Assembly (NCBI RefSeq): GCF_000956175.1 | Contig: NZ_CP011070.1 | Location: 930,001-994,000, forward strand | Length of the DNA stretch: 64,000 nucleotides | Direction of reading: 5' to 3' | DNA from: Nitrosopumilus adriaticus | GTDB lineage: Archaea; Thermoproteota; Nitrososphaeria; Nitrososphaerales; Nitrosopumilaceae | In this document: positions 187 through 17,778 of the stretch, one piece after another | How the letters are laid out: the number at the start of each line of letters is the position of its first letter | Position numbering within the stretch: the first letter of the stretch is position 1 | Position numbers and translations under genes: made by a program | Notes under the pieces: model-generated | Database searches by the model: none | What the model was told of the DNA's origin: nothing | Seen by the model: only the letters and a program-made list of their open reading frames with translations

Positions 187-1518
187 TTAACTTTTAGGTA
201 TATGTTCTGCCTTTATTCTCTTATTGAAAACCAAACACGCCGTAAGATCTCCGCTTACGTTTACCATTGTTCTCGTCATATCTAAAATTCTATCAACACC
301 TAACAATAGAACTATCCCAATTACTGGTACCCCGGCAGCTAGTAGGATGGATGATAAAATTACAATGCCAGCACCGGGAGCTGAAGGGGCGCCAATTGAT
401 GCCATAAGTGCAGTTACTGCAATTAGAATGATTGTCGTTGCACCCAACTCAATACTGAAAAGTTGTGCAAGGAAGAACACTGCAACAATTTGATATAATG
501 CAGTACCATTCATGTTGATTGTAGCACCTAGTGGAATTACAAATTGAGATACTGCGGGTTTAACTTTCATCTTTTCTTCTGCTGTCTTTAATGAAACAGG
601 CATTACAGCAGCTGAACTTGATGTCGAAAATGCAAGAAGAAGAGGATCTTTCATCATTTTCAATGTGGATATTATTGGTCTACGTGCAAATACTTTGATA
701 ATTACAATATATGCTAGCATCATTATGAAGAGTCCGATAACCACAGTTCCCATATATGCACCAAGTCCTACAAGTGCATCAAGTCCAACTTTTGATACGA
801 TATCTGCCATCAAACCAAATGCTGCAAGTGGTGCTAATCTCATTGCCCACGAAACTACTTTCATGGTAATTTCTTGAATTGATTCCAGCAAATCCGTTAT
901 TGACTCTGATTTTTTTTTAGGAAGAGAGATCATTGCAATTGCAACAAATAATGCAAAAATGATGATGCTCAGCATTTCCCCAGACATAAAGGATGTCAAA
1001 GGATTGCTGGGGATAATACCTATGATGTGTTGAGGAATGTCAAGAAAATTAAATTCTATATTTTCTACAAGTTGTTCTGTCTCATCAATTTCTAAACTTG
1101 ATAGCATTGCTTCACTATCAACAAAATTTCCTGGGACTATTGTTGTAGCTACAAATACACCAATACCTAAAGCAATAACTGTGGTAATTACAAAAAATGC
1201 CGCAACAGAAATCCCCATAGTTCGAAGTTGCTCTACACTACCTGCTGACAAAAGACCTCTAATAATGGATGCAAAAATTAGAGGAACAATTATCATCTGA
1301 ATGATTTTGAGGAATAAATGTGCAGGAATAGAAAGCCAAGTGGTGATAATTCCACTAGTGTCTTTATCTACAATTCCTGCTTCTGGACCTAGGACTAATC
1401 CTAGCAATAATCCCAAAAACAACCCAACAAGAACCTGTGCCCATAGTTTTTTCTTAACTAGGTATGAAATTTGAGGAATTTGGTGCTTGAAAGACTTTAT
1501 GACCATGATTTTTGACAT
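187..1518 (-). CDS. Dicarboxylate/amino acid:cation symporter (DAACS family)
   Basis: Secondary transporter of the sodium/proton:dicarboxylate (glutamate/C4-dicarboxylate) symporter family, in the cell membrane. Several hydrophobic helices are followed by the family's serine-rich hairpin (FSTSSSAAVMPVSLKTAEE) and the substrate/Na+ motif with ATINMNGTALYQ, then a second hairpin (SIGAPSAPGAGIVILSSIL) and a GVDRILDMTRTMVNVSGD helix, all diagnostic. I chose the ATG at 1518, giving 443 aa, because the frame upstream of it is an unlikely hydrophilic extension running into the divergent channel gene. The substrate (glutamate, aspartate, succinate or similar) cannot be told from sequence alone. Confidence 0.93.
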   Translation of the reverse strand: MSKIMVIKSFKHQIPQISYLVKKKLWAQVLVGLFLGLLLGLVLGPEAGIVDKDTSGIITTWLSIPAHLFLKIIQMIIVPLIFASIIRGLLSAGSVEQLRTMGISVAAFFVITTVIALGIGVFVATTIVPGNFVDSEAMLSSLEIDETEQLVENIEFNFLDIPQHIIGIIPSNPLTSFMSGEMLSIIIFALFVAIAMISLPKKKSESITDLLESIQEITMKVVSWAMRLAPLAAFGLMADIVSKVGLDALVGLGAYMGTVVIGLFIMMLAYIVIIKVFARRPIISTLKMMKDPLLLAFSTSSSAAVMPVSLKTAEEKMKVKPAVSQFVIPLGATINMNGTALYQIVAVFFLAQLFSIELGATTIILIAVTALMASIGAPSAPGAGIVILSSILLAAGVPVIGIVLLLGVDRILDMTRTMVNVSGDLTACLVFNKRIKAEHIPKS

Positions 1519-1598
1519 GCATTCAGTAATAATAAAAAGACGGATGTTCTCGAAGTTGAAAATCTTATTTTGCTTTTTAGTAGTGTGATGATGGATTA

Positions 1599-17454: not shown

Positions 17455-17520
17455 AATTGATAAATCCCTCTACTTGGTTTCTGAAAATTAGTTTTGTTTT
17501 TTGATTTTAATTAAACACAT

Positions 17521-17530
17521 GTTTGCAAAC
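17521..17530. promoter_or_regulatory. Palindromic operator-like site
   Basis: A perfect 10-bp palindrome GTTTGCAAAC, 12 bp upstream of the TATA-like box of the small RNA at 17571. Its place just outside the core promoter fits an activator or repressor site. Only the palindrome is seen; no binding protein can be named. Confidence 0.35.
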
Positions 17531-17542
17531 CTGCTCAAATTT

Positions 17543-17552
17543 CTTTTATATC
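17543..17552 (+). promoter_or_regulatory. TATA-like box for the small RNA
   Basis: The sequence cttttatatc lies 19-28 bases upstream of the first base of the RNA hairpin (17571), the distance expected for archaeal TBP-directed initiation. It is preceded by an A/C-rich stretch that could serve as a BRE. Confidence 0.5.
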
Positions 17553-17570
17553 TTGAATCCTATCTATTAT

Positions 17571-17644
17571 TGACGACTTCGTATAGTGGTCTAGGCATGC
17601 TATAAACGATCACTATTCCAAGACGTCATTAATTTCGTTTTTTT
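17571..17644 (+). ncRNA. Candidate structured small RNA with own promoter and T-run
   Basis: Outer helix tgacg-a-ctt (17571-17579) pairs with aag-a-cgtca with only one A-A mismatch; inner helix atagtggtc (17583-17591) pairs with gatcactat over 9 bp with one G-T. A 16-nt loop containing GCATGC caps it. An archaeal TATA-like box lies about 25 bp upstream and a run of seven T (17638-17644) follows, so both ends are defined. There is no coding frame in it on this strand. It resembles no tRNA, SRP RNA, RNase P RNA or C/D RNA that I know. Confidence 0.55.
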
Positions 17645-17778
17645 AATAATGCATCTTCGGGTGTTTTTTCTTTGTTGGCTTCCCAATGCCAATTATGATG
17701 TTTCTTCCAATGATTATCTAATTCTTCGGTGGTGGGTTCTTTTCCAAGAGGCGTCCCACATAGTTTACACTGTTTCAT
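17629..17778 (-). CDS. Zinc-finger-like micro-protein (49 aa)
   Basis: MKQCKLCGTPLGKEPTTEEL, then DNHWKKHHNWHWEANK. A C-x2-C-G knuckle is followed by a His-rich helix (H23, H27, H28, H31), a C2H2-like layout with a longer linker. The ATG at 17778 is preceded by GGAGATT, a likely ribosome site. The end of the gene is antisense to the T-run and 3' end of the small RNA at 17571-17644. Confidence 0.6.
   Translation of the reverse strand: MKQCKLCGTPLGKEPTTEELDNHWKKHHNWHWEANKEKTPEDALLKKRN

Follow-up and report, generated by a model that had tools for sequence, protein, structure and literature searches.

In the present study, we describe a probable small structured RNA gene of Nitrosopumilus adriaticus, lying on the plus strand at positions 17571-17644 of the window (the whole stretch of DNA analysed, 64,000 nucleotides long, taken from positions 930001-994000 in a genome assembled as one contig of 1.80 Mb). 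Judged from the sequence, and with a probability of about three in four, this locus is a gene for a structured non-coding RNA of ~60-75 nt, present in one copy and transcribed independently, and is the first of an RNA family restricted so far to Nitrosopumilaceae; the level of the RNA would be set by a regulator, and it would act in trans through its loop and be non-essential. Very probably the hairpin is a genuine small RNA gene transcribed from a promoter of its own; its role, we infer, is regulatory.

Results

The features of the locus are as follows (window positions).
17484-17502, plus strand: AT-rich upstream element AAAATTAGTTTTGTTTTTT (about -87 to -69), conserved in Nitrosopumilus, g5 and g11 (Nitrosarchaeum)
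17512-17526, no strand: dyad TAAACA-NN-TGTTTGA, here TAAACACATGTTTGC, seen at 25 loci of four genera
17521-17530, no strand: palindrome GTTTGCAAAC of the sequence-only reading, only its left half kept in relatives
17545-17550, plus strand: TATA box TTTATA, seen at 25 loci of four genera
17571, give or take a few nt, plus strand: predicted transcription start, placed from the TATA position
17572-17627, plus strand: small RNA hairpin with 16 consensus pairs, supported by covariation and strand bias
17572-17575/17624-17627 plus 17577-17579/17620-17622, plus strand: lower helix, supported by covariation and strand bias
17581/17618, plus strand: isolated G-C pair of the hairpin
17584-17591/17608-17615, plus strand: upper helix, supported by covariation and strand bias
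17592-17607, plus strand: apical loop TAGGCATGCTATAAAC with the near-invariant core GCATGCTATAA, from column counts of 74 sequences
17629-17778, minus strand: convergent gene for a 49-aa C2H2-like protein, a syntenic neighbour outside the RNA gene, matching Pfam zf-C2H2_4 only below the cut-off
17638-17644, plus strand: run of seven T, a possible 3' end in Nitrosopumilus that doubles as the coding end of the convergent gene

Fold and strand

The hairpin of ~60 nt with two nearly perfect helices, which the sequence-only reading had pointed out, is present, and its inverted-repeat arms span 17566-17591 and 17608-17633. It is single-copy in the window genome and folds with an energy of -20.5 kcal/mol (z = -3.65), a value equalled by 1 of 200 shuffles. 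In the alignment of 74 sequences used for the pairing statistics, 99.2% of the pair cells of the 16-pair structure held standard pairs, whereas control structures slid along the same alignment reached at most 63% pairing. The earlier reading had staked its claim on compensatory base changes in relatives, and these were found: double changes occurred at 7 pairs, with 47 such cells observed against 13.8 in shuffled alignments, and the covariation score was 0.245 against 0.162. Pair 2/57 of the lower stem, for example, was seen as GC, GU, AU, CG and UA. When changes were counted on a tree of the flanking sequence only, pairs 18/41, 17/42 and 2/57 showed 9-14 per side; the best of them, 18/41, changed 11 and 14 times by parsimony on its two sides and was still paired in 74/74 sequences. 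These findings indicate that the fold is well supported and that compensatory changes maintain the secondary structure. G-U cells outnumbered A-C cells 86 to 3 in the 74 sequences, a bias that indicates the plus strand as the RNA.

The apical loop, 16 nt in length, is the longest conserved single-stranded stretch of the hairpin, and its core GCATGCTATAA (in RNA letters GCAUGCUAUAA) was near-invariant in the 74 sequences. The same was true of T8, T9, G11, C48, C49, A50 and A51 around the internal loop. Three extra pairs within the apical loop were added by the energy model; they were weakly supported, so the loop is best drawn open. The loop also contains AUG-CUA-UAA (window 17597-17605), a start, one codon and a stop, kept in 72/74 sequences, which is probably a by-product of loop conservation.

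Promoter and 3' end

The TATA-like box noticed earlier at the expected distance proved to be TTTATA at 17545-17550, with a spacing conserved in 25 loci of four genera: it starts 24-27 nt before the hairpin, 26 in most. The dyad AAACA-NN-TGTTT starts 55-58 nt upstream of the hairpin in the same number of loci and genera (about -57), that is, ~31 bp upstream of the TATA box. The spacing of both elements was constant across the four genera although the flanking genes differ between them. Such an arrangement matches the layout of archaeal TATA promoters that have an upstream activator site. By this layout the start site would lie at the predicted position, and the dyad is probably a transcription factor binding site, the factor presumably being an activator. 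The AT-rich element farther upstream takes a AAATTTGTTTAAAATTT-like form in g13. As for the palindrome GTTTGCAAAC of the sequence-only reading, it is indeed present in the window, but as written it is unconserved in relatives; its left half overlaps the right half of the real dyad TAAACACATGTTTGC, whose centre lies ~7 bp farther upstream.

In the window genome the dyad had 10 sites, and 9 were counted in the control. With no enrichment, it points to no regulon, and a dyad regulon was rejected. By eye, none of the other nine sites had the same promoter layout. Other promoter-like sites of the window genome were rejected as coding or chance.

The seven T described earlier do stand at 17638-17644, but a dedicated terminator was unsupported as written: they fall within lysine codons close to where the convergent gene for the 49-aa protein ends, and the run, present in Nitrosopumilus and some relatives, is absent in g11 Nitrosarchaeum, whose copies abut a different convergent gene. 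The run may mark a 3' end in Nitrosopumilus, and in part of the family it is lacking. From genus to genus the gene for the 49-aa C2H2-like protein stays at most ~1 kb away from the RNA, and several RNA-less genomes retain it.

Distribution, loss and divergent relatives

When 95 genomes of the same genus were searched at the DNA level, 47 matches with E < 1e-10 were obtained in 46 genomes, the window itself not counted, and most matches spanned promoter and hairpin together. The covariance model R1 detected the RNA in 47/95 genomes of the genus and, outside it, in 29 genomes from three genera. In all, 76 genomes keep the RNA, and they belong to Nitrosopumilus, Nitrosarchaeum and a Nitrosomaritimum-type genus; named genomes scanned by pattern gave the same bearers (Nitrosopumilus, Nitrosarchaeum, Ca. 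Nitrosomaritimum-type). There was one locus per genome, except in G091, which had two identical matches in an assembly with 9% contamination; in G005 the locus spans 785109-785166 on the minus strand. With the hairpin-only covariance model R2, 400 genomes of the class yielded no additional genus. A virus-borne RNA was considered and rejected, as none was seen in viral contigs scanned with three patterns.

The RNA is present in only about half of the genus. Several genomes without it keep the zinc-finger-like gene, and remnants were seen at the site: the 3' half of the hairpin (L178), a loop fragment (L190) and the promoter without such a hairpin (L182). Because these remnants remain in RNA-less genomes, the RNA is dispensable in those lineages.

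At another locus, the two genomes of genus g17 carry a hairpin that shares the upper stem TTAGTGGTC/GACCACTAA and has a loop starting GGCATG and a TATA-like box at -27; R2 scored the extracted loci at E 2e-4 and 7e-4. This version lies around 1540-1660 of L252 and L253, is non-syntenic and has a 352-aa gene on one side and a HAD-like gene on the other. In G069, which also carries a normal copy of the RNA, a relative of the g17 version that looks decayed was seen with a TATA and a dyad-like sequence (L256, about 1495-1565, minus strand). From their sequence, the g17 and G069 hairpins are probably divergent members of the family.

Known RNA classes

The sequence-only reading knew of no RNA class that fits, in agreement with Rfam 15, in which no family reached the gathering threshold and none matched over the hairpin at E up to 10. 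A riboswitch or leader would precede a conserved same-strand gene; none was found downstream, where the gene is convergent and differs between genera. A tRNA origin, suggested by GTATAG..GGTCTAG, which recalls the tRNA-Asp D-arm, was rejected: 7% of shuffles scored equally and the stem covaries away.

Discussion

The earlier proposal of an independent small-RNA gene that fits no known class is strongly supported by covariation, by pair changes on the tree, by the plus-strand bias, by the fixed spacing of TATA box and dyad and by the absence of an Rfam match. The locus is best read as the founder of a new small-RNA family, driven by a TATA box and probably controlled by an activator, whose members would act in trans with an invariant loop. 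Transcription would begin at the foot of the hairpin, at a level set by a regulator on the dyad, the position of which is typical of an activator. The folded RNA may then act in trans by offering its loop and internal loop to a partner, the loop being the likely binding surface. The partner would more likely be a protein, or a second RNA copy joined via GCAUGC, than a long antisense target. That unpaired and paired bases alike are invariant speaks for either of the first two. The RNA would be a non-essential regulator, lost in some lineages.

The same RNA gene could also serve as an antisense small RNA, the loop of which pairs with mRNAs and blocks or alters their translation or stability. Antisense pairing via a short seed is a strong rival, credible though somewhat short of even odds, and the 16-nt single-stranded loop, the own promoter and the typical sRNA size all speak for it. 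However, within the window genome the perfect 10-nt core complements TATAGCATGC and TTATAGCATG are confined to the RNA locus, while G-U tolerant 13-mer and ATAGCATGCY matches change genes from one genome to the next, or lie antisense or within coding sequence. Among the complements searched, of 10 and 13 nt, no perfect 10-nt match of the loop core to an mRNA was conserved; seeds of 6-8 nt stay plausible. A seed also cannot explain the invariant paired bases beside the internal loop. A long antisense target was rejected, as the exact complements stand at the RNA locus only and ATAGCATGCY in genes unrelated between genomes. More tentatively, the hairpin may be a protein-binding or GCAUGC self-pairing regulatory RNA under a dedicated activator, an RNA-based switch of ammonia-oxidizing archaea with no counterpart among described archaeal RNAs, with the g17 and G069 hairpins as a second branch; as a whole this is possible, though less likely than not.

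The remaining explanations would change the nature of the element and are far less probable. That it is a minus-strand element, either a 3' stem-loop of the convergent gene or the 5' leader or riboswitch of a farther minus-strand gene, is suggested by the convergent gene ending directly at the hairpin in Nitrosopumilus and g11; this is very unlikely, for the wobble count, 86 G-U to 3 A-C cells, assigns the pairing to the plus strand, TATA box and dyad hold their distance on that side, and the genes at these positions differ between genera. We consider it just as improbable that the hairpin is an unusual guide RNA of the C/D or H/ACA type that directs the modification of rRNA or tRNA. Small guide RNAs are numerous in archaea and the internal loop could serve as a pocket, but box C (RTGATGA) and box D (CTGA) are absent from the 74-sequence consensus, no conserved ACA was found after the stem, the internal loop has only 1-2 nt per side and Rfam gave no match. 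A DNA element (recombination site, origin or operator) might be read from the inverted repeat adjoining the dyad; G-U tolerance on one strand together with covariation points instead to RNA, the TATA spacing is fixed and the three patterns were absent from viral contigs, leaving this the least credible explanation.

We also noted that the loop AGGCAUGCUAUAAA shares 12/14 letters with AGGCATGCCACAAA, a multicopy promoter element that precedes the members of a small-gene family. This link was rejected, since the element is absent from the RNA-bearing complete genomes G003, G005, G006 and G007 and abundant in the RNA-less G050 and G071. The element, as AAAAAGGCATGCCACAAA, stands ~54 nt upstream of the start codon in the small-protein family (L204, L211, L203 and L210, position about 1500), and exact copies of GGCATGCCACAA number 3 in the window genome and 14 in G050.

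Ammonia-oxidizing archaea drive much of marine nitrification, and no characterised regulatory RNA in these archaea was found in the open literature searched. With a covariation-supported fold and a defined promoter, the expression, regulation and partners of the RNA are directly testable, and the covariance model can be used for annotating genomes and metatranscriptomes.

The RNA is a new family of archaeal small RNA, a known kind of thing, of which we found no description in the open-access literature searched. With the archaeal C/D and H/ACA box small RNAs it shares its size and, for H/ACA, a hairpin with an internal loop; unlike them, it has neither boxes nor a guide pocket, and no K-turn consensus was seen. 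The Thalassoarchaea ncRNA Tan1 is likewise a lineage-specific marine archaeal RNA of function not known (PMC5069720). Tan1 is a euryarchaeal RNA of 229 nt with a complex fold and an observed transcript, whereas ours is a predicted hairpin RNA of ~60 nt in Nitrosopumilaceae. An example of an archaeal intergenic small regulatory RNA is sRNA132 of Haloferax volcanii (PMC6560208; reviewed in PMC3432209); ours resembles such RNAs in being a small, independent intergenic gene of an archaeon. In contrast to sRNA132-type RNAs, which belong to another phylum and have no known sequence relation to it, our RNA has a conserved hairpin whose loop is invariant, and a dyad at a fixed distance upstream.
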